From Paraescarpia echinospica (lineage: Eukaryota > Annelida > Polychaeta > Sabellida > Siboglinidae): 64,000 bases of DNA. This document shows positions 2,871 to 64,000 of the stretch, in pieces. Within the stretch, counting starts at the first letter, position 1; each line of letters starts with the position of its first letter. A program made the translations under genes and the position numbers. A model generated the notes under the pieces. The model worked only from the letters and a program-made list of their open reading frames with translations. It was not told the origin of the DNA and ran no database searches. The DNA is taken from NCBI GenBank assembly GCA_020002185.1, contig CM034533.1, positions 51,305,081-51,369,080 of the forward strand, read 5' to 3'.

Positions 2871-5302
<2,432 letters not shown>

Positions 5303-7229: not shown

Positions 7230-8600
7230 AGCTTTTTGGGAACTAATGTATTTGTTCCGGTGATGTCCTGATGCCACAAGGCCCAGGCTCCGAATCTTTC
7301 TCCTGGCTTTTCTCGTTTCCACTGTGACCAGACTACGGATCTTTCTCCTTGCTTTCCTTGTTTCCAGTGTGTCCACGCTCGGGATCTTTTTCTCTGTCAC
7401 ACCTCAATTGCGGCGGACTGGGGCACATCTCTTGAGCTTGCTGCTGTATTGCTGACAGTGCTGGACGGTCGGTTCCATAACGAGGCAAGAAATCGTCATG
7501 TGTAAAGATGTATCGATTAAAAGGGCTAATTCCGCTAACGCGAAAGCGCTGCTGGATATTGGATGGCGTTGTTGCCAATCAATGCTACCTTAATTATGGC
7601 AGGGAGATCATAGATCGCGATGGTTTTTCTTGGATTGCATTTCATCCACCCATCTTTTGCCAATTTGATGTATTTCTTGAGCGGCCTAAACATACTCCTA
7701 TCAAGAGGGTGCCGTCTGTGACGACATTGAGGAGGGAATGCTAACAACACCAAGTCATTTTCTTGCGAGTAATTGATCACATCTAGCGAAATATCAGACT
7801 GGTCATTATCGAGAAGAAGTAGCACTTGTTTTTCTTTTATGCACCTGGTAACGTCTTTAAAGTGTTTCGTGAACATCAAAAAGTCATCCGCGTTCATCAA
7901 ACCTAAAGGATTAGCTGAACCGATGCTTCCGATGGGAGCACTGGCCAGGAGATGGTGCGGAAGTTCACCCGTGGGAATATAAATATGGGTGGTAGACAGG
8001 TTCTGCTAGCGCTGACCTCTAAAGCAACTGTGACAAGAGTCCCACTTTCGGCGGATGTCGCCATTCCCATCTGTTTAGCACCTCAAGATGCAACGATGCG
8101 AGTCGGTCCTTGTACTGTTGTAACACCCATTTCGTCGACATTATATATGTCATGACATTTATATCTGTACTTGTCTTGAACCTCAGCCAAGTTGTCAAAG
8201 AACATTCACCCGATTGAAACTCGTTGCTCTGCTTAAGCTACTAGCTTCCGGGGTTCGGATTGACAGCCTGCTGTTTCGCTTAAGAAACGCTGTGACCCAA
8301 TCTGGATCAGCTATCTCATAATGAGCCCAATTGTCGGGCGCCACGATTCCGTTCGCAACGGCAAATCGATATGCCAAACGTCGCACGTCCTTTAATGAAC
8401 GGCCGTGATAGATCACCGACGCTCTCCGGATATAATCAGCCAGCAATGCTTCTTGCTCTGCACATAAGACCATTCCAGGGCAAGCATTCCCGATAGTGGT
8501 TGCCTCTCCTTTTCGAAGCTTCTTGCAATAACGATTGAGTGTCATGAAGCTGCCCTGCAGTAAATCAGATATGCTTACCGTTAAGTCATTAATAAATTGA
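7230..8600 (-). pseudogene. pogo/Tigger-like (CENP-B type) transposase, broken
   Basis: Read on the minus strand, the parts occur in family order. First comes the HTH/CENP-B-type DNA-binding region at 8195-8580, with LADYIRRASVIYHGRSLKDV and PEASSLSRATSFNR. Next is YNVDEMGVTTVQ with the first catalytic Asp (around 8130) and a PPIFIFPRV segment. Then come LLLLDNDQSD with the second Asp (around 7820), LDRSMFRPLKKYI and finally FRVSGISPFNR (around 7540). A frameshift near 7955 separates PPIFIFPRV from MNADDFLMF, and another separates the last two parts. The enzyme would cut and paste its own element; this copy is inactive. A GT microsatellite abuts the N-terminal side. Confidence 0.85.
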
Positions 8601-27966: not shown

Positions 27967-28550
27967 TGCTCCAGCCTTGGCAGATATCTTCCAGAAGTCC
28001 CTGGACTCAGGCATTCTACCAACGGATCAGCAAACAATTCCAGTGTCTTAAAAAAGGTGGTAAACACCAAGCATCCAACTATATACCTATTTCGTTGACG
28101 TCCGTGTGCTGTAAGCTCATCGAGCACATTGTATGCTGACATCTCCTGAATCACATAGAAAAGAACCAGATCCTCTCATCACTGATCCACGGATTCCAAT
28201 TCAGGGTTTTCGTGCAAAACCCAGCTATCACTACCTGAAACGATTTTCTCACTTCATACGACAAGGGCAAGCAAGTGGATGGTGCCTTACTTGACCTCAG
28301 TAACGCCTTTGATACTGTCCTACATAGGAAGCGATTCAACACTAAAAATGTTATACACTCAGCGTCAGCAACAAATCCAAGTATTTTTGCAGTCTTGGCA
28401 GCAGCATCCTCAAACAAGTCCCCAACAACCCATACCTAGGACTCGACATTTCAGATGACCTCAAGTGGCACACTCACATATCCACCATCACTAAGAAAGC
28501 AAGCTCTTCGCTAGGTTTCCTCCGATTTTTTCCGAACTAAAATAGGTGAC

Positions 28551-29276
28551 CAGTAGCGCCACCTATCGGATTTTCCATGAACTACATATATAAGTGGTGC
28601 CACCTGACGGACAAGTTGTAAACTAAATGTAGGAGTACTGCCCAACTTCGTGCGTCTTATTTGACCAGTAGCGCCACCTACCGGATTTTCTGTGAACTAA
28701 ATTACAATGTTGTATAGGTTATTAACTGGTGCCATCTGGCGGATAAGTTGTGAACTAAATGTTCGAGTACTGCCAAAATTCGTGTCTCTTGCACGCTTGC
28801 GTGCAATAGAGCCCCCTGACGGATAGATCAGAAACCACAAACATCATCCCCTAGTGGACAAGTGAGCGAACCACATATGAGTACTGCAAAAATTCGTGTC
28901 TCTTGTTTTTGTCGAGTGCTTACTCCTGGTGGATATATCATCATCAACTGAAAGCACCCCTGTTAGATAAGTGGTGAACTATATAACTACTCTGCAGTTC
29001 GCGCTTGTGTACATTCTACTCAGCAGTCCGTGCTTTTGAATTTTCTACGATCCGTGATCTTTCGGCACGCCCACGTGACTTTTCGGCACATTTACTAACT
29101 ATATAAGCGCGGAGCTCTACCAGTCGAACCATCATTCGTATCACGACGACAGCACGGCTAACATCATCATCATCATGTTGAAGACACCCTACTACCGACC
29201 TCGCAATGCGGCAGACTCGAGCGACGAGGACGAGCCGACGAGCCGACCCATCATGCCGGTGATCAACCGTCCTTCC
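28551..29276 (+). repeat. Left inverted-repeat arm
   Basis: This carries at least seven CTCF-like words (C/TGCCACCTAGCGGA type) at about 28555, 28597, 28670, 28729, 28810, 28846 and 28922. A TATA box follows (29100-29106), and the first 34 codons of the RPA-like gene start at 29175. Homology to the right arm ends inside that gene. Confidence 0.85.
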
Positions 29277-29333
29277 ACCAAAGTGGTTGTATACATTTTT
29301 GCGAGGTTAACCCCAACTTTTTTCTCTAGCTAA
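29175..29333 (+). pseudogene. Truncated 5' copy of the RPA-like gene
   Basis: ATG at 29175 starts the same MLKTPYYRPRNAADSSDEDE N-terminus as the full gene on the right. After codon 34 the sequence leaves the homology and reads unrelated residues to a stop at 29331-29333. It keeps its own promoter copy, so a short transcript is possible. The OB-fold and zinc ribbon are missing. Confidence 0.75.
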
Positions 29334-29394
29334 CCTAATTAGATAGTTTTACCCGCTAGATGGCGACATCATGTGACGTAGTACTCCGATTATC

Positions 29395-29925
29395 CACTAG
29401 GGGCGTTACGTCGGAAGTGACGTCGTACCGGAAGTTACTTGACTGTCATGGCAGCCTCTACTAGGGACGCCACGTCGGAAGTGACGTTGCACCGGAAGTT
29501 ACTTGAATGCCATGCCGACCTGACATGGCGGACTCTATGCTTCCGATTTTCCCGGAAGTGCGTCAACGAGTAGAGATCTATCATGGTCGGTAGATGACAA
29601 TACTCTGACTAATTGCATTGGTGTCCGTTGAGTGGCGTTGGGAACCATGATGGTCACCTCTTTGAATGAAGTCCTGTCAGATGGTTGTCCTTACATGTTA
29701 TTGACATAGTCGTTTTCGATCATAGCAGTTTTCAAATTCGCTTGTTATGGCAGCCTCTACTAGAGACGCTACGTCGGAAGTGACGTCACACCGGAAGTTA
29801 TTTCACTGTCATGGTGGACTCTACGCTTCCGGTATTCCCGGAAGTCTGTCAACGAGTAGAGATCTATCATGGTCGATAGATGACAATACTCTGACTAATT
29901 ACATTGGTGTCCGTTGAGTATGTTA
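29395..29925 (+). promoter_or_regulatory. Duplicated ETS/CRE-like module array
   Basis: CGGAAGTGACGTC (ETS-like core next to a CRE-like TGACGT) followed by ACCGGAAGTTA occurs three times, at about 29412-29439, 29475-29501 and 29774-29800. CTTCCG...CGGAAG pairs occur near 29540 and 29834. The surrounding 170-190 bp (from about 29450 and about 29750) is a direct duplication. CTCF-like words are also present at about 29350 and 29395. The function is inferred from motif resemblance only. Confidence 0.5.
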
Positions 29926-30207
29926 TGTGTTGAGCGTGTGTTGTGTATGTGTGTTGTGTATGTTGTATATGTTATGTGTTGAGCGTGTGTTGTGTATGTG
30001 TGTTGTGTGTGTATTGTATGTTGTGTGTATGTCGTGTATGTTGTTAGTGCTGTGTATGTATTGTACGTTGTGTGTGTTGAGTATGTGTTGTGTATGTTGT
30101 GTGTGTGTGTGCATTGTATGTTGTATGTGTTGTGTGTGTGTTGTATGCGTATTGTATGTTGTGTGTGTTGTGTATGTTGCGTATGTATTGTACGTTGTGT
30201 GTGTGTG

Positions 30208-30288
<81 letters not shown>

Positions 30289-31143
30289 GTGTATGTTGTG
30301 TGTTGTGTGTGCTGTTTATGTGTTGTGTGTGTTGTATATGTTGTGTGTTGTGTGTGTTGTGTATGTGTTGTGTATGTGTGTTGTGTGTGTGTATTGTATG
30401 TTGTGTATGTTGCGTATGTATTGTACGTTGTGTGTGTTGTGTGTGTTGTGTGTGTGTGTGCTGTTTATGTGTTGTGTGTGTTGTATATGTTGTGTGTTGT
30501 GTGTGTTGTGTATGTGTTGTGTATGTGTGTTGTGTGTGTGTGTATTGTATGTTGTGTATGTTGCGTATGTATTGTACGTTGTGTGTGTTGTGTATGTTGT
30601 GTGTTGTGTGTGCTGTTTATGTGTTGTGTGTGTTGTATATGTTGTGTGTTGTGTGTGTTGTGTATGTGTTGTGTATGTGTGTTGTGTGTGTGTATTGTAT
30701 GTTGTGTATGTTGCGTATGTATTGTACGTTGTGTGTGTTGTGTGTGTTGTGTGTGTGTGTGTTGTGTATGTTGCATATGTATTGTACGTTGTGTGTGTTG
30801 TGTGTGTTGTATGTGTATTGTATGTTGTGTGTGTTGTGTATGTTGCGTATCTATTGTACGTTGTGTGTGTTGTGTATGTGTTGTGTATGTTGTGTGTGTA
30901 TTTTATGTTGTGTGTGTTGTGTGTGTGTGTTGTGTGTGTTGTATGTGTATTGTATGTTGTGTGTGTTGTGTGTGTGTGTGTGTTGCGTATGTGTTGTGTG
31001 TGTGTGTAGTGTATGTTGTATATGTTGTGTGTGTGTTGTGTGTGTTGTGTGTGTTGTGTGTGTATTGTATGTTGTGTGTGTGTGTGTGTGTTGTGTGTGT
31101 TGTGTGTGTTGTGTATGTTTTGTGTGTTGTGTGTATTGTTGTT
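29926..31143. repeat. GT-rich satellite with ~150-bp higher-order unit
   Basis: Variants of GTTGTGTATGT alternate over 1.2 kb. A distinctive GCTGTTTATG word recurs at 30311, 30460 and 30612, showing a higher-order unit of about 150 bp. A pure (GT)n block lies at about 30206-30287. All frames are open because the sequence lacks A-containing stop codons; they are not genes. Confidence 0.9.
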
Positions 31144-31288
31144 TGAGTGAGTGAGTGAGTGAGTGAGTGAGTGAGTGAAGGAGTGAGTGAGTGAGTGAGT
31201 GAGTGAGTGAGTGAGTGAGTGAGTGAGTGAGTGAGTGAGTGAGTGAGTGAGTGAGTGTGTGAGTGAGTGAGTGAGTGAGTGAGTGAGT
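31144..31288. repeat. (GAGT)n array
   Basis: About 36 units of GAGT with two single-base variants. The same tetranucleotide in complement forms the array at 59690-60080 beside the polymerase-type element. Confidence 0.95.
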
Positions 31289-31414
31289 GAACATACACGA
31301 AGGATGAGTGAGTACGTGAGTGCTTTGAGTGGATTGTTAATCGGGACTTAGATGAGTATCTTTACTTGTGAAGTGTAAGACACGAAAAAATGACACAAGT
31401 TAAGATTTGAACAT

Positions 31415-31420
31415 TTTATT
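31415..31420 (-). terminator. Poly(A) signal of the two-gene minus-strand unit
   Basis: AATAAA on the minus strand, 92 bases after the stop of the 31512-31970 gene. Confidence 0.55.
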
Positions 31421-31511
31421 CGTGTACAACACAAACGTATTTACAGGTCGTGCTCCATTCTCTGCAGTTGAATTAATGTCACTAAAGGTCTCATAAAACC
31501 ACAAGACAGAT

Positions 31512-31970
31512 TTACAGATCATCCTCCATTACTGTCAGAACAATTTGCTTTAATTTGTTTCGCCACTCCTCTGAAAACAGTTCTTGCAACCAACTCCCGA
31601 TAGTACACAAGTGATCGGACGTCAGGTCGGATAGCTTCAAACCTGCGTCTAACAAAACACACAACCAGTCTTTCATCACTGCAGTTGAATTAATGGCCTC
31701 CACAGACTCGTCAAAGTGCATATAAATTAGAATGTCATCAGGTAACATACAATCGTGATGAAATTGACTAGGATCGCCTATCTCGCACGCGAGACACTGT
31801 CGTCTCGACAGTTCAACGACGGCACATGCTATGTGACATGCAATCGTCTTCTTCATTTCCGTCGCAGGAAACTCAAGCGTAAAGTTCGGACCAGTGGCGA
31901 CAGGAGCGGTGGTTGTCACATTGGTTGCGTGAGTAGAAATTGTGACATCGTCAGGAGCGGAAGTTGTCAT
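31512..31970 (-). CDS. Uncharacterised 152-residue protein with a Cys/His motif
   Basis: An intact frame from ATG at 31970 (no earlier ATG in frame) to the stop at 31512. The N-terminal 35 residues are Thr/Ala-rich and low complexity. Residues 59-74 form C-x2-C-x8-H-H-x-C around DPSQ, a plausible zinc-binding knuckle. The C-terminal half is mostly helical-looking and ends acidic. It follows the RPA-like gene after 73 bases on the same strand. A CCTGTTTCAG (acceptor-like; exon would start at 32024) precedes it, so it may be reached by splicing rather than by reinitiation. I recall CxxC...PSQxxHxC frames near virus-like insertions in animal genomes, but do not know the function. Confidence 0.6.
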   Translation of the reverse strand: MTTSAPDDVTISTHATNVTTTAPVATGPNFTLEFPATEMKKTIACHIACAVVELSRRQCLACEIGDPSQFHHDCMLPDDILIYMHFDESVEAINSTAVMKDWLCVLLDAGLKLSDLTSDHLCTIGSWLQELFSEEWRNKLKQIVLTVMEDDL

Positions 31971-32043
31971 ATCGGCCGTGTCGGCGGAAGGTGTCACATC
32001 GGCAGGGATGACGGCAGACAGAGGCTGAAACAGGATACGGAGC

Positions 32044-32601
32044 CTAGTGTATCACCTCCACGTGAGTGACGTTGAAGTTTGTGTAAGTATCTCGTCGAGT
32101 TTTCTTTATGGTGAGAGACACACGAGTTCCCGTCAACGAGTTCAGTTTGTAAGTCTGCATCGTTTCGTCCATAACAGCAAACGTCTCGGCATTCACGTCA
32201 AGGAGAAGAGCCATACACTGGTCGAATAAAGTCAGCCATATAGATCGACCCGTCGCTGTCTCGACAAAGCACATGCGCACCACGAAATGCATGTCAGAAG
32301 CAACGTAACCGTGTCGTTCGCATTGCAAATGTCCCCTATCGTCGGTAATCATACGCTTCTTGCAGTACCTGCACCCGATGTAGAAGGGAGTGTGCTGGCG
32401 TACTCTGTCGATGAGGAGACCTCTGATCTTGATAACGGCGTCGGCGCTTACCGTTGCTTCTAGAGCTGAGATGTCCACGACGTCAGGTTCCGACGGCACG
32501 GAAGAACGGTTGATCACCGGCATGATGGGTCGGCTCGTCGGCTCGTCCTCGTCGCTCGAGTCTGCCGCATTGCGAGGTCGGTAGTAGGGTGTCTTCAACA
32601 T
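32044..32601 (-). CDS. RPA-like OB-fold single-stranded-DNA-binding protein
   Basis: An intact 185-residue frame. Start at 32601 is chosen because it is the ATG shared with the left arm and lies about 66 bases after a TATA box; an upstream in-frame ATG at 32661 would lie near or before the expected transcript start. Residues 1-45 are polar and acidic (SSDEDE). Residues 74-133 match the replication protein A large-subunit C-terminal OB-fold (Rep_fac-A_C type): a zinc ribbon C77-x2-C80-x13-C94-x2-H97 followed by VVRMCFVETATGRSIWLTLF and DQCMALLL. Such proteins bind single-stranded DNA during replication. In mobile or viral elements they probably protect replication intermediates, which is an inference here. 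No disruption is visible, unlike nearly all surrounding repeats. Confidence 0.75.
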   Translation of the reverse strand: MLKTPYYRPRNAADSSDEDEPTSRPIMPVINRSSVPSEPDVVDISALEATVSADAVIKIRGLLIDRVRQHTPFYIGCRYCKKRMITDDRGHLQCERHGYVASDMHFVVRMCFVETATGRSIWLTLFDQCMALLLDVNAETFAVMDETMQTYKLNSLTGTRVSLTIKKTRRDTYTNFNVTHVEVIH

Positions 32602-33222
32602 GATGATGATGTTAGCAGTGCTGTCGTCGTGATACGAATGACGGTCCGATTGGCAAAACACCGCGCTTATATAGTTAGTAAATGTGCCGAAAAATCACGT
32701 GGGCGTGCCGAAAGATCACGGATTGTAGAAAATTCAAAAGCACGGACTGCTGAGTAGAATGTACACAAGCGCGAACTGCAGAGTAGTTATATAGTTCACC
32801 ACTTATCTAACAGGGATGCTTTCAGTTGATGATGATATATCCACCAGGAGTAAGCACTCGACAAAAACAAGAGACACGAATTTTTGCAGTACTCATATCT
32901 GGTTCGCTCACTTGTCCACTAGGGGATGATGTTTTTGGTTTCTGATCTATCCGTCAGGGGGCTCTATTGCACGCAAGCGTGCAAAAGACACGAATGTTTG
33001 CAGTACTCGAACATTTAGTTCACAACTTATCCTCCAGATTGCACCACTTGTAGTTCATAACCTATACACCAGGGGGATTTAGTTCACGGAAAATCCGCTA
33101 GGTGGCACTACTGGTCAAACTAAGACGCACGAATTTGGGCAGTACGCGAACATTTACTTTACAACGTGTCCGTCAGACGGGGCGCTATTTTATTTCGACC
33201 AAATTCCGCTAGGGGCGCTGGT
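32500..33222 (-). repeat. Right inverted-repeat arm
   Basis: Reverse-complement partner of 28551-29276. Read on the minus strand it carries the same series of CTCF-like words, the paired CTTTCGGCACG/TTTTCGGCAC words around a CACGTG, the TATA box and the first codons of the intact RPA-like gene. Confidence 0.85.
32667..32673 (-). promoter_or_regulatory. TATA box of the RPA-like gene
   Basis: TATATAA on the minus strand, also kept in the left arm (29100-29106). A TCATTCG initiator-like word follows at about +30 in both arms. Confidence 0.55.
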
Positions 33223-33254
33223 TTTAAGTTCATGACCTATCCGCTATGGCGCCA

Positions 33255-33310
33255 CTTGACCTTGACCAACACCCTGGTACTTGACCTTGACCTTTGACCT
33301 ACATCCGGGT
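33255..33310. promoter_or_regulatory. Cluster of nuclear-receptor-like half sites
   Basis: TGACCTTGACC occurs twice, the second running into TTTGACCT. On the minus strand this gives AGGTCAAAGGTCA (DR1) and TCAAGGTCA (extended half site). It lies just outside the right arm. Confidence 0.4.
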
Positions 33311-33369
33311 ACTTTTGCTCTTGCACCCATCCGAATCCAACATACACTCGTACACCACCTCCTTTACTG

Positions 33370-33970
33370 CTCTTAACGTATAAGGAAAAAGAGCTAATAA
33401 TACCGCTGTACAAAACAATAGTTAGGCCTCATTTTGAACATTGTATTCAAGCGTGGAGGCCATATCGCAGGAAGGACATAGATATGCTAGAAAGAATGCA
33501 GAGGAGAGCAACTAAAATGATATCAAAACTAAGGGATCTTAGTTACGAAATACGCCTTAAAAAATGCGGTTTAACAACACTAGAGACCAGGAGATTGAGA
33601 GGAGATCAGATAAAAGTGTTTAAAATATTGAATGGTTATGAAAATATTGATAGAAATATTTTTTTCTCAGTTAAGAAAAATAGAAGGACTAGAGGACATG
33701 AAGTTACAATAGCAAAGGAGCAGAGTAGATTAGATATAAGAAAGTTTTCATTTTCACAAAAAAACTGTAAATGAATGGAACAGATTATCTGCTGATTGTG
33801 TGGGTGCTAGTAGAGTGAATATGTTTAAAAATAAAATCGACACATACCTCAGACGGGCGGGATACACATAGGTAAAAGGGTCGGACTCTCGATAAGCCAA
33901 AGGGCTTCCTTGTGCACCTGCCACCTAGAGTTAATTCTCTGGGTGGCAATCTTGTTAAATATATTGTTAA
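33370..33970 (+). mobile_element. CR1-like LINE, 5'-truncated 3' end
   Basis: The frame reads IVRPHFEHCIQAWRPYRRKD, QRRATKMISKLRDLSYEIRL and GHEVTIAKEQSRLDIRKFSF. The 3' UTR ends in repeats of TTGTTAAATAT at 33950-33975. It is the same family as 10286-14030, inserted in the opposite orientation. Confidence 0.85.
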
Positions 33971-34214
33971 ATATCATTCGCCAGCCGGCCCCTCAGCGTT
34001 AAGCACAAACTTTCGACCGCGCAACTCGCGAAAAAGTTACTTCTCAATTGATCCGTCTATGTTATAAAACAGTTCGTTCTCTGTTTGTTTGTGCACCCAC
34101 GTCTTCGTTGGTCTTGTATGTATCGGGCCGACATTTTGCATGTGATCTACGGCCCCATTGAAATGGTTCGTATATTTAGACATTTTCGAAATTCGTCGGG
34201 GAGTTGATAACATG
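33971..34214. other. Repeat-derived spacer
   Basis: Text around 34065-34160 (CTCTGTTTGTTTGTGCACCC and ATTTTGCATGTGATCTACGG) recurs near 35325-35390, and part of it at 3450-3500, so this is another dispersed repeat. Confidence 0.5.
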
Positions 34215-34690
34215 GGGGCTCAATATGTTATATTGTCCGTCCCCACTTAAACTACTGCAGTGCTGTCTGGAACCCATGCATCAAGAAGGAGGTAAACCAA
34301 ATAAAAAATATCCAGCGCCAGGCAGCCAGATTTGTCCTGAACAACTATAGTCAGATAGAAAACGTGTCCGCAATGATTAACCACCTCCATTGGGACTCCC
34401 TTGAAAGAAGAAGACAACTCTCTTGCCTCCTCCTGATGTATAGGATCCAAAACCAACATATTGTCATTAATGGTAATCACTACTTTGCCCCAATGCTCCC
34501 CACCGGTACAATATATTATCATCCAAATAAATATAAGATTATCCCACCTCGCATTCGGGTCTACAGCAATCCTTTCTTCCCAAGCACTCTCTTCCGGTGG
34601 AACGCCCTGCCCGGGAATATGTTGGTAGCTCCACCCATCCAGGCCTTCAGGGAAGCGGTTGTTTCACACTGGTCTGTGTTTTTACTCACA
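34215..34690 (+). pseudogene. LINE ORF2, right part (C-terminus)
   Basis: VRPHLNYCSAVWNPCIKKEV, IQRQAARFVLNNYSQ and FFPSTLFRWNALPGN give the thumb and C-terminus expected after the left part at 26335-28527. It is joined to a CA microsatellite at its 3' end. Confidence 0.8.
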
Positions 34691-34764
34691 CCTCGTTCAT
34701 ACTTTACTCGCACTTTATATTATATACTTTTTCTCACACGTTCACATCTGACACAGCGCAATTG

Positions 34765-34912
<148 letters not shown>

Positions 34913-35707
34913 GGCATCAAAATTCAGACTGATGGACTATGCTGATTAACCACACAGAAGTAGAAGTAGAAGTTCGAAAGGCTGTACGTGGAGTTCCACC
35001 CGCGGAATTTAGTTTTTCTATGTCATCGTAAAGATAATTATGTCATGGATATATACAGACATTTTGAATAGTTTTTAAGTTATTGATGTTTGAAAATCCT
35101 CATCGCTTAACAGGCACCAGGCCTACCTGTCGTTGGTCACGTCTGCAAGCTTACAAGTAGCGCCCTCTTTCGCATTTCATATATTTACTACATATAGAGC
35201 TATATGTCATTTTGTCATTTAGCGTCAAAATTATCGCCCGTCAAGTTAATGTATTATAAAAAGTGAATGTCAAAAGTTATCTTGGATAACCTGGAATACG
35301 ACATATCTATATCAGAAAACAATTAATTCTCTGTTTGTTTGTGCACCCACATCTCCGTTAGTTTTGCATGTATCGGGTTGAAATTCCAACTCAGCATCCG
35401 CTGTTGCTGGTTACGTCAGCTAGACGGGTAAGCGACTGACATTGAGATTTCTGGCAAAAATGTTGTCCTAACAACTAGGCCAGTGACCTGTTACCATTTA
35501 TTAATGCGGGTAGGCTGCACGCACGCACACACACACGCGCGCACGCATACACATGCGCACACGTACGCACACACACACACACGCGCGCGCGCACACGTAC
35601 GCACACACACACACAATATTAGATAGCTAGCCCCATTAGTTGTAGATAATTGTTTTTATTTTAAATTAAACAAGCGAATGCTATTCTCGAATGTTCCCTT
35701 GTTACAG
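34913..35707. other. Gene-less stretch with CA/CG simple repeat
   Basis: A mixed CGCA/CACG/CA repeat lies at 35518-35615. Otherwise nothing is recognised except the dispersed repeat word near 35325-35390. Confidence 0.5.
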
Positions 35708-60209: not shown

Positions 60210-61194
60210 ATGAGCTCCTCGACTATTCTACTGGATGCCAACAAGCCCACACCATCACCGTTCCAGTGCCCAAATTGCAAGACACATTTCTCACGTCGGG
60301 ACAACTTGAAACGACACATTGCCGGCATTCACGGTGGACGATCGACAAACACCACGTCACTGGATTCACTTGTCTCGGGGCACACTATGACACTAACGTC
60401 TCTGGCCCCAGCGACAAGCTCGATATTCTCGTCGCCATCTCAGGTGACCATGGAGTATACAAAGAAGATGGCGCTTGTTGATCCTCGTAGTTTGGAAAAC
60501 ATTCAACTGCAACGTCCTTCGACTGCTAATCCTATCCAAAGTGTCTTGCAACGACTCGACAATGAAATGCAAGACATACTGGAACGAAGCGATGTACACG
60601 AGAGGGAAAAGGTTGTGTTGTATAACCAGGTGTTGAATCGGTACAACGATCTTTCCGACAAAAGTATCCAAGAACCCGTGCGTGTGGTCATCAAAAGCAT
60701 TCCCAGCAAAGTCGAAAACAAACTTCAACCTGCTAACGAAAATGAAGTCGTCGAAAAGGAGAGCATTGAAAACGAAATCACCGACAGCGTTCCAAAAACT
60801 ATGAAGCAGAAAGCACGAAGACTACTCGATAAAATGAAAAGTGCCGTAAGGTGGAACGATCGCGGTGAGATGATGTACAGAAACTAGGCGGTTCCCGGAA
60901 GTAATAACCTTGGACCTTGTGAATGACGTGCTGAGAAAACGGAAGTCGTTTGAACCGGTGGGATGGGAAACCTTCGCTCGTGGTCTCAAGGACGTCAACA
61001 CGCCAATGGAATTAGTTGGGAACTCAGATCGTTAGCTTTACATGCAGACAGCGTCAGTGGACGACGATATATCAAAGGAAAAAAGCATTCCATTCGACAG
61101 CGATCGTCATCGGAATCGTAGACGACCTTTATCGTCGCGGCGCGCAGCTCAATCGGTGACACCTTTGCAAATCACACGTTGGGAGCCTTATTAG
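60210..61194 (+). pseudogene. C2H2 zinc-finger protein of virus-like-element type, frameshifted
   Basis: ATG at 60210 opens 225 codons. A C2H2 finger (C20-x2-C23-x12-H36-x4-H41, within FQCPNCKTHFSRRDNLKRHI) is followed by a linker, then the block ALVDPRSLENIQ and LQRLDNEMQDILERSDVHER, then EKVVLYNQVLNRY. I recall this block from uncharacterised proteins in Polinton/adintovirus-like insertions in animal genomes. Near 60880 the family match leaves this frame, which stops at 60887. It goes on in another frame with LDLVNDVLRKRKSFEPVGW, followed by one in-frame TAG (61033-61035) and a basic tail ending at 61194. The gene therefore carries at least one frameshift and one stop. It converges on the polymerase remnant. 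A structural or DNA-binding role is inference only. Confidence 0.65.
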
Positions 61195-61489
61195 CATTGC
61201 TGATTTGGAATCTACAGGAACAGGGTGCAAGAGACATCATGTTGATGTTATGGATAAGTGTGTTTGTTTTTAGTTTTCATAGTCATCAAGATACACCTCG
61301 CTTTTCCCCGTTTCAGTGACAACAATTATTTTGTGAACGTATCAATGTGGGTGATGTTCAATATACCTAAGTGAATTTTGACTTAAGAGTGGTATGTAAT
61401 GTTTGCATGTAATGTTGGCATGCACGTTCTTGTATTACCTTAATTAAGCAATAACAAAGTCGACACCATATGTGCGTTTGTGAAATGTT

Positions 61490-61730
61490 TTATTCAGACA
61501 CCCAAGAGAAAGTGTCAATCTTATAAAATCTTGGAAACCTTAATTATATACAAATTGATATGATATGATACACACATTGTATTCAGACACCCAAGAGAAA
61601 GTATCCCTGTGAATTATATCACATATATTCTTGTTATGAGACACCCTAGAGAAAGTGTCACTATTATAAAATCGTGTAAACCTTAACAACTATATACAAA
61701 TCGACTTCATATGATACACAGCCACTGTTA
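61490..61730. repeat. Tandem repeats with GACAC...GTGTC hairpin
   Basis: GACACCCAAGAGAAAGTGTC (61497-61516) recurs with one or two changes at 61586-61605 and 61640-61659. The first and third are followed by similar text (TTATAAAATC, then AAACCTTAA, TATACAAAT and ATGATACACA), so a longer unit was duplicated. Confidence 0.8.
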
Positions 61731-62082
61731 GACAGTATGCTACACTCTGTGTTTATTTATTTTATGACACGACATCTGCAGCGATTGAAGTATACAATAT
61801 ACTTCGTTTATTTTCACCAATGTCCTACTTAAAAATAGAAAGCACAGGACAGTGATGATGATGATGCAACAATGACGTGTGTGTGTCGATATACGTTTTA
61901 ACAATTGACAAGATAGGAGTCGATAAAAACAATAGTTCATCACGGCTATATTAAGACCGGATATTACACGGCTATCTCTCGAGTGCACCGAACAGTAAAT
62001 GTGAAATGTGAAAAAGTACACTCTTTAATAATCGACAAGTAGGATTCAGTTTTATCAGCGATAAAAATAATACCTGATCACG

Positions 62083-62132
62083 GTTACACCAAGACTACAT
62101 GTTACACCAAGACTAAACGTTACACCAATAAC
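62083..62132. repeat. Short tandem repeat GTTACACCAAGACTAAAC
   Basis: Three adjacent imperfect copies just downstream of the polymerase remnant stop codon. Confidence 0.75.
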
Positions 62133-62182
62133 GAATGATACACGGGGAGTGTTGCTCACGAGAAGATTTACTGGTCTGTCTA

Positions 62183-64000
62183 TTATACCAGACACGGAGA
62201 GGTAGAGATTCCATCGGCTTGTACCGGTCGTTTGCAATAAAAATATGTAAGTGCAGAATGTTCTTGAATATAAGTAAAAACTGAAGCATTCTTCACAAGA
62301 AACCCTCGAATTTTTCCAACGCCACTCTCTTTGGTTTTGGGTACTTTCAAAAATATGTCTTTGTCAATTTCGTTGTGTCTCTTATTTAGACCTTTCGTGC
62401 TGAATTTATCCGTATCACCAAAACAATAATATGTTTTGCTGCACAACCCGATAAAACTTCTACCTCCGTATTCGACCTTGAATAGGCCAGGTGTCCTTTT
62501 GTCGTGACGCGCACTCGCAATACAACACGATGCCGAAGGGACCCATTCTTTCCCTTCCATCCGACAAGTGACATAGTCGGGTGCGTGCGCTTCACAACAA
62601 ACAGCAGGAAACCACCGGGACAAGCTTGTAAAGTATTCTTGTCGTTTATCGGTGGTAACACAATCGTCTAAACAAGAAAAAGGTAGACTTAAATATGCGG
62701 AATCCGTATCCATCTCGCACTATTGGAAGAGAGGACGCTCTACGTAATAATTTGAAGAGGGAGATCGTATTTAATGGATTTCTTGTTCATTGTTAATTGG
62801 TACACGGATTCCGTAATTGAGTCTAGCTGGCGAAAACGATGACTGTTAATTCCTTGGCTCGCCGTTTTACTATTACAAAAGATAACATTTCTGTGGAGAT
62901 CCTTATTAGTGATACATTTTCCATAGCCACTATTCCCAAGAAGTTTCATCGTATCACCAATAATGGCCTTGTCCGGGTGCACGTCACCTTCGCGGCGTGC
63001 ATTCGAGACGGCATTGGCAAAATGTTTGAAACACGGACTGGGTTCGTATTCTAAAACTTGATAAACGTGAGATACGATCAGTCCGTGTTTCAAATACCAT
63101 TTTAACAAAGGTGTACCTACAAGAATTTGTTTACCAAAATACGAAGCCATCAGTGTACGCCGAGGAGTAGATAATATATTGTGCTCTTCAGCGTAAGCTC
63201 GCATATAGGGACCGATGTCGTCACGGGTAATGTTAATTTTTTAAAAATGGGTTGCATTTCACCAAAATAATCTTTAAGATGATCTGGAACAAAATTGTCG
63301 CACTCTACCATGCCAAATAGGCGACCTTCAACTACATTTTGTAAAACTTTATCTTGGGTCATTTCCCACTTCAGGTTACGGTGAGGAAATTTTGAATTTA
63401 GAAAATTTCTTATTTCTGAATTTTTCCGAATTTCTTTCCATTGACATTCCCACATTTCGACGACCTCGGCATATTTACCCAAATACGTAGTATTCTTTTT
63501 AGTTTCTGATAGGAGATCGGCCATAGACTTTCCGTTGATAGAGTTGGTTTGCTCCACGTTACAAGGACAACCGTGAAAATAGCAACCGTGAAATTGATAA
63601 ATGGTGCGAGTCTGGGCACACCATCCGTCAACGGGAAGTTTACGATCCCCAATGCGTTTCTCTTCTCCGTTAAATTGATGCCTTATCGTTGTATTCGTCT
63701 CGTGAGCTACCCACTCTAGCCATTCAAGAGCCATTTTTACGTAAACACGTGATGTTTTAGGTCTAAAATTATTGTCTCGGCTACGACGCGTATAACATCC
63801 GGTAGGTATATCTTGTGAAAGAGCCCAAAGGTATAAGGCATTAGCATCGTAGCCAATAATAAAACGACAGGGGCGAGCTGACTCACCCATTTCCGATTCA
63901 CGAAGCCGTGTAACGTCAACTTCGTGATGGCGGTGATAAATTACAGACGGGCCCCCTACTATGGCATTTTTTTTACATATCGTGTAAATCCCAATCTTTT
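62183..64000 (-). pseudogene. Protein-primed-type family B DNA polymerase (Polinton/adintovirus-like), broken, runs off the window
   Basis: Read on the minus strand from the right edge, the order is that of DNA_pol_B_2. First is VGGPSVIYHRHHEVD, near the exonuclease/palm border. Next is the palm motif A region IIGYDANALYLWALSQDIPT (about 63870-63810), then an insertion region with cysteine/histidine pairs. The fingers motif region KLLGNSGYGK (about 62940) follows, then motif C MDTDSAYLSL (from 62713) and a thumb-like C-terminus to the stop at 62183. Breaks: a frameshift in an A/T homopolymer near 63240; a deletion of roughly 20-25 residues and an in-frame TAG just before motif C (62720-62765). 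In intact elements this enzyme copies the element DNA. This copy cannot make a working enzyme. The upstream part lies beyond the window. Confidence 0.85.

Follow-up and report, generated by a model that had tools for sequence, protein, structure and literature searches.

In the siboglinid annelid Paraescarpia echinospica, a 64,000-nucleotide stretch of contig CM034533.1 (positions 51,305,081 to 51,369,080 of assembly GCA_020002185.1, 1.084 Gb in all; hereafter the window) holds at 28524-33371 a single element that encodes an RPA-like protein and is a deletion derivative of a Polinton/Maverick without its left terminus. It belongs to a multicopy family: on the right it ends in the terminus typical of that family, and both of its genes are ones that family members carry at their termini. 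We consider it likely that the window copy is an internally deleted, non-autonomous member of a family whose modules are almost always found apart in the copies scored and read and whose copies are helped in trans. With less assurance, we favour the view that the family is a bipartite Polinton, split from an undivided one that still has copies in the genome into mutually dependent, separately integrated, largely intact and recently multiplied elements with promoter-bearing, RPA-coding ends: P elements, which carry a polymerase, and S elements, which carry integrase, ATPase and capsid-like genes. The window copy, read from left to right, consists of the following features, in which ORF1 and ORF2 are open reading frames:

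28524-29276, plus strand: left terminal-repeat remnant and promoter-like region, with a TATA-like box at 29100-29106, an ATG at 29175 and the first 34 RPA codons; outer end missing.
29277-29925, no strand assigned: 'mid' non-coding repeat block, with related sequence at loci L031, L032, L034, L039, L043 and L044.
29926-31290, no strand assigned: TG-rich and GTGA microsatellite.
31512-31970, minus strand: ORF2, 152 aa, with a C-x2-C...PSQ..H.C motif; frame open from 32051.
32044-32601, minus strand: ORF1, 185 aa, a protein like DNA-binding domain C (DBD-C) of RPA70.
32500-33371, minus strand: outer part of the right terminal repeat, with a promoter-like region, a TATA-like box at 32673-32667 and an intact terminus at 33371.

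A preliminary description of this DNA, made from the sequence alone, reported inverted arms of about 725 bp that contain a promoter-like box and a gene start, and these are readily recovered. Positions 28604-29276 match 33176-32500 with 93.5% identity across 680 nt, a profile search lengthens the arms to 28555-29276 and 33219-32500, and comparison with relatives carries the left arm outward to 28524. Each arm includes a TATA-like box, the ATG and 34 codons of the RPA-like gene, and inward of the ATG the arms agree at 102 of 103 bases. The two open genes described in the right half, with a TATA-like box and a poly(A) signal, correspond to ORF1 and ORF2; AATAAA is present at 31420 and 31554 on the minus strand, and base-shuffled versions of the two frames remain open in 6 and 3 cases per 20,000, respectively. 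The right boundary had been drawn at 33222 and moves to 33371, where the family motif is present with one mismatch (AGCAGTAAAGGAGG, read inward); the left terminus is absent. The element had also been placed inside a LINE (long interspersed nuclear element). Its left edge does adjoin LINE-like sequence that apparently resumes near 34211, but its right terminus adjoins a different LINE-like fragment, from 33372 to about 33970; Pfam has no family for 33298-33771 or 34211-34942, and these labels come from translations judged by eye. Motifs like that of CTCF occur in both arms and the mid block: of 14 window matches with up to two mismatches, nine, three of them exact, lie within 28555-33109, against a whole-window expectation of 3.9 (standard deviation 1.9).

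Could the feature be two separate insertions of related elements that lie tail to tail? The clustered differences between the arms and the missing left terminus favour such an origin, but we hold it to be very improbable. The relative L043 carries these terminal repeats at either end, with the mid block directly inside the right one, whereas in the window copy the mid block comes after codon 34 of the left RPA gene; the left repeat has therefore apparently lost about 1.26 kb, and the L043 layout minus that segment gives the left arm of the window copy. A tblastn search with the family versions finds no integrase, polymerase or capsid-like gene in the window copy, in agreement with the preliminary description as regards integrase and capsid. 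Its suggestion that the element replicates itself does not hold for this copy, which lacks a detectable polymerase by the same search and cannot replicate itself.

Other copies in the genome, to which the preliminary description had looked for termini and target duplications, provide both. Nineteen stretches were retrieved, covering nine convergent RPA pairs. Family copies begin and finish with AGTAGTAAAGGAGG or close variants and have AGTAGT ends, and the 14-base end motif is present in 18 of 24 locus stretches scanned, either exactly or, in L044/L045, with two mismatches. The motif scan overlooked the left end of L048, AGTAGTTAAG, and found no right terminus for L043. Flanking 6-bp sequences match at all six positions in eight of the nine copies read at both ends (AACATA, CACGCA, GACCAG, TACGAG, CATGTT, ATATAT, GCGCTC at C11:5771038-5783588 and TACATG at C5:1595934-1609130); the ATATAT flank, on C6, is of low complexity and was read by eye, and the flanks on C7 match at five of six bases. 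Terminal repeats of copies with RPA at both ends are about 1.9-3.1 kb long and bear genes. Three copies without P or S genes are near-palindromic, with arms 96.9-97.7% identical over 3.1-5.4 kb in stretches that include runs of N; they have target duplications and could be fold-back replication products. On C8, a palindrome at L036-L038 (C8:57830501-57852500) is centred in an ATPase gene and has arms 99-100% identical that run on into the flanks. This palindrome may be an assembly artefact, and the C8 copy was excluded from the flank readings because its flanks are palindromic too. It is nevertheless the source of several query proteins and is still counted below.

Two gene layouts are seen in complete copies. 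The P copy on C4 (L046, L047), read throughout, consists of RPA, ORF2, polymerase, C2H2, ORF2 and RPA, with no S gene and no integrase. The S copy on C6 (L048, L049) begins with RPA, ORF2, ATPase, a 112-aa protein, integrase and two minor capsid-like genes and continues with a 136-aa protein, a major capsid protein (MCP)-like gene, protease, C2H2, ORF2 and RPA; its complete reading contains no polymerase. The C2H2-ORF2-RPA terminus is common to P and S elements. At C2 a copy retains only a polymerase fragment, and the P copy on C11 and the S copy on C5, both read in part, have a far end without an RPA gene. The far end of the C5 copy encodes a protein that is RPA-like at its start, as judged by eye, and has a NADAR domain at its end (Pfam, 1.7e-21). 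Gene positions in the C11 and C5 copies appear to leave no space for the other module. Just past the terminus of the C11 copy, L053:7052-7976 resembles the ATPase (61-64%) and the 112-aa protein (41%) and is probably part of an older, different Polinton.

The S genes include a match to the rve integrase family (Pfam E 7.9e-7; 29.7 bits, under the cut-off of 32.6), a Chromo domain (29.1 bits, cut-off 25.1), an A32-type ATPase (Pox_A32, 26.6 bits, cut-off 22.8), seen only in S elements among the copies read, and a putative adenain-like protease with a weak match (Peptidase_C5, E 0.0013; 18.9 bits, under the cut-off of 21.3) for which PDB gave no match up to E 0.1. Pfam also recognises C2H2 in complete copies. 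We take the P gene to be a polymerase from PolB-like motifs judged by eye, and the capsid candidates to be MCP-like (double jelly-roll) and minor capsid-like (single jelly-roll) from motifs and gene position. The family terminus at the right of the window copy, together with integrase, ATPase and putative protease genes in complete relatives, agrees with the preliminary description in its view of a single element, either related to Polintons or derived from the end of a DNA virus that had integrated, in place of a cut-and-paste transposon.

Linkage counts across the genome indicate how far the modules lie apart. With candidates ordered by their similarity to P or S queries, we scored the best 97 of 4,572 loci for the MCP-like gene, 96 of 4,340 for polymerase, 112 of 4,422 for integrase and 150 of 3,595 first-look candidates for RPA. 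An MCP-like gene lies within 15 kb at 2 of the 96 polymerase loci, and the C8 palindrome accounts for one of these two pairs. Polymerase and RPA are paired at 3.0-4.1 kb in 35 cases and MCP-like gene and RPA at 2.2-3.9 kb in 29, always with RPA downstream on the opposite strand; within 8 kb, three polymerase-RPA and six MCP-RPA pairs have other layouts. Integrases have an MCP-like gene within 5 kb at 55 of 112 loci and a polymerase at 2 of 112, and this integrase-MCP linkage, found in the same lists, serves as a positive control showing that the lists are deep enough to detect neighbours. Among the 40 polymerase loci that score best, none has an MCP-like gene or an integrase within 15 kb (0/40). 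Within 6 kb of the 150 RPA loci we find polymerase only at 36, an S gene only at 41, both at one and neither at 72. NADAR searches gave 161 matches and 147 scored candidates; among the 70 best rows, integrase and MCP-like gene are present in order in 30, 15 of which also have RPA, and polymerase lies within 15 kb in none of the 30 and in 1 of the 70. Many of the best-scored polymerase and MCP-like frames lack a stop at 98-100% identity. The modules are physically separate in the copies examined, and the family is a variant of Polintons because polymerase and integrase lie apart in the young copies examined.

Several observations weigh against a divided family. Apparently undivided copies exist, 92-93% identical to the polymerase query (L052 and C5:7996743). 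L052 contains in a row sequence matching polymerase (at 91% in the reading of this locus), protease-like (52%), ATPase (74%), 112-aa protein (93%) and C2H2-like (75%); next come integrase at 92%, a pair of minor capsid-like genes at 87% and 95%, the 136-aa protein at 93% and the MCP-like gene at 94%. This gene order unites polymerase and integrase on one element, unlike the young copies examined. At C5:7996743, polymerase and integrase are separated by 3.0 kb, and the one other such pair is found on C8, next to the palindrome that may be an artefact. The C423 copy has the S layout without integrase and ATPase. Almost half of the RPA loci (72/150) have neither module nearby, at 57 of 112 integrase loci no MCP-like gene was scored within 5 kb, and with 96-150 loci scored of the roughly 3,600-4,600 candidates for each gene, diverged copies of the undivided kind are sampled too sparsely. 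Finally, neither Pfam nor PHROG matches the polymerase, PDB gives it no relevant hit, and the capsid candidates have no match in any of the three.

These points raise the possibility that P and S copies are ordinary deletion families, that a surviving undivided Polinton supplies everything in trans and that sampling accounts for part of the division. Two loci with undivided order, at 92-93% to the polymerase query, speak for this reading, and lists of the loci most similar to P or S queries could favour the divided forms. We regard this explanation as possible but rather unlikely, as stop-free polymerase and MCP-like frames occur at 98-100% identity, yet none of the 40 best polymerase loci is near an MCP-like gene or integrase, and the same lists do reveal integrase beside the MCP-like gene.

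The protein encoded by ORF1 had been described as RPA-like, and a profile check agrees: it matches Pfam Rep_fac-A_C at 31.4 bits, above the cut-off of 28.5. Yeast RPA1 is matched at E 1.7e-4 with an alignment profile and at E 0.017 with the single sequence. The predicted structure is poor (mean predicted local distance difference test score (pLDDT) 52.1), and the top Foldseek rows are RPA subunits (E 9.7e-4, template modelling (TM) score 0.25-0.30). Of 91 candidates from protein searches, 30 are relatives of ORF1, and for two of these the named source is the tubeworm Ridgeia piscesae. ORF2 has 19 relatives, reached by way of P0010, a protein whose ORF1-like part passes directly into an ORF2-like tail; with ORF2 alone as query, 0 of 12 candidates were related. 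Three contigs apparently common to both sets suggest that ORF1 and ORF2 are linked in relatives. ORF2 has no family in Pfam and no convincing match in PDB or BFVD, and its structure model retrieved nothing at E 0.001 or better from PDB or BFVD. No relative is encoded in 1, 97 and 152 pattern-matching stretches of viral contigs or in any of 24 prokaryote genome contigs. In the genome itself, every one of the 150 scored RPA loci shows 93% identity or more, and 137 lack a stop. Of 30 RPA loci taken for a comparison of nonsynonymous and synonymous differences (pN/pS), 26 with an open frame were kept, four were dropped and nine sequences were added; over the resulting 35 sequences and 595 pairs, in which one locus is present twice (C7 left is L027), pooled pN/pS is 0.32, and the RPA gene is under constraint. 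We rejected a host RPA paralogue, which the preliminary description had named, with introns elsewhere, as the finding that would undo its view: the frame lacks introns and is present in many copies.

A relative of Helitrons or Helentrons coding for an RPA-like protein, as Helitrons of plants, mites and others do, was another candidate, prompted by the RPA gene and the microsatellite; semi-autonomous Helitrons with RPA alone are described in PMC4683698. The ends and target duplications speak against it and leave it a negligible probability: family copies end in long inverted repeats with AGTAGT at their tips and are flanked by 6-bp target duplications, and ORF1 matches the DBD-C family, whereas the RPA of a mite Helentron is given DBD-A and DBD-B in PMC4067079. 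Mothra and other RPA-coding Helitrons, as outlined in the same two papers (PMC4683698, PMC4067079), resemble the window family in being semi-autonomous, in their RPA-like protein, supposed help in trans and tandem repeats, and differ from it in rolling-circle transposition, other ends and the lack of a target duplication.

How might divided elements persist? We infer mutual help between P and S elements. The S integrase would insert P, S and derivative copies, presumably acting on all of them because their ends are common. The P polymerase would replicate the same three kinds of copy by protein priming, with the RPA-like protein covering displaced single strands, and S proteins would carry out packaging. 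Deleted and palindromic copies, including the window copy, would then be by-products carried in trans.

Polintons/Mavericks share with the window family AGTAGT ends, 6-bp duplications, an rve-type integrase, an A32-type ATPase and, by a weak match, perhaps an adenain-like protease (PMC8097293, PMC4028283); AGTAGT ends with 6-bp target duplications are specifically reported for vertebrate Mavericks (PMC8097293). The terminal repeats of about 1.9-3.1 kb in copies with RPA at both ends contrast with the 46-1,447 bp given for vertebrate Mavericks (PMC8097293, PMC4028283). The window family further differs in its terminal RPA-like, ORF2 and NADAR genes and, among the younger copies examined, in the distribution of polymerase and integrase-ATPase-capsid-like block over separate elements. 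Bidnaviridae (PMC4061559) likewise have a genome in two linear parts whose ends are conserved, and a polymerase gene of Polinton type, but are small single-stranded DNA viruses of silkworms with a parvovirus-type capsid and are not integrated elements. In PMC12220804, 'bipartite' refers to networks, and the main text of PMC11071308 does not contain the words RPA, NADAR or segmented. Candidate capsid-like and polymerase-like genes, named by motif, may be a further likeness to Polintons. Literature searches that covered titles and abstract openings returned no paper naming a bipartite Polinton, and searches combining RPA with Helitron or transposon terms returned Helitron or unrelated papers.

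The window contains a second member of the family:

60210-63620, no strand assigned: a broken copy in the P layout, with a C2H2 gene at 60210-61191 (plus strand) and polymerase pieces at 62375-63620 (minus strand).

Its C2H2 gene and polymerase pieces face each other with 1.2 kb between them, and the C2H2 match in the window is above the Pfam cut-off. Elsewhere in the window are a NIDO (nidogen-like) domain at 4196-4834 and a DDE_1 transposase remnant at 7535-8005, both on the minus strand, and two copies of a short interspersed repeat, 83% identical, at 34056-34135 and 35306-35385.

Several groups of DNA viruses are regarded as related to Polintons or descended from them. A family open to reading both as undivided elements and as replication and packaging parts would allow the origin of segmented DNA viruses to be studied directly. 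Bidnaviruses, whose genome is in two parts and whose polymerase is of Polinton type (PMC4061559), are the natural comparison, and an RPA-like protein encoded at the termini would extend the known Polinton repertoire by a replication factor.

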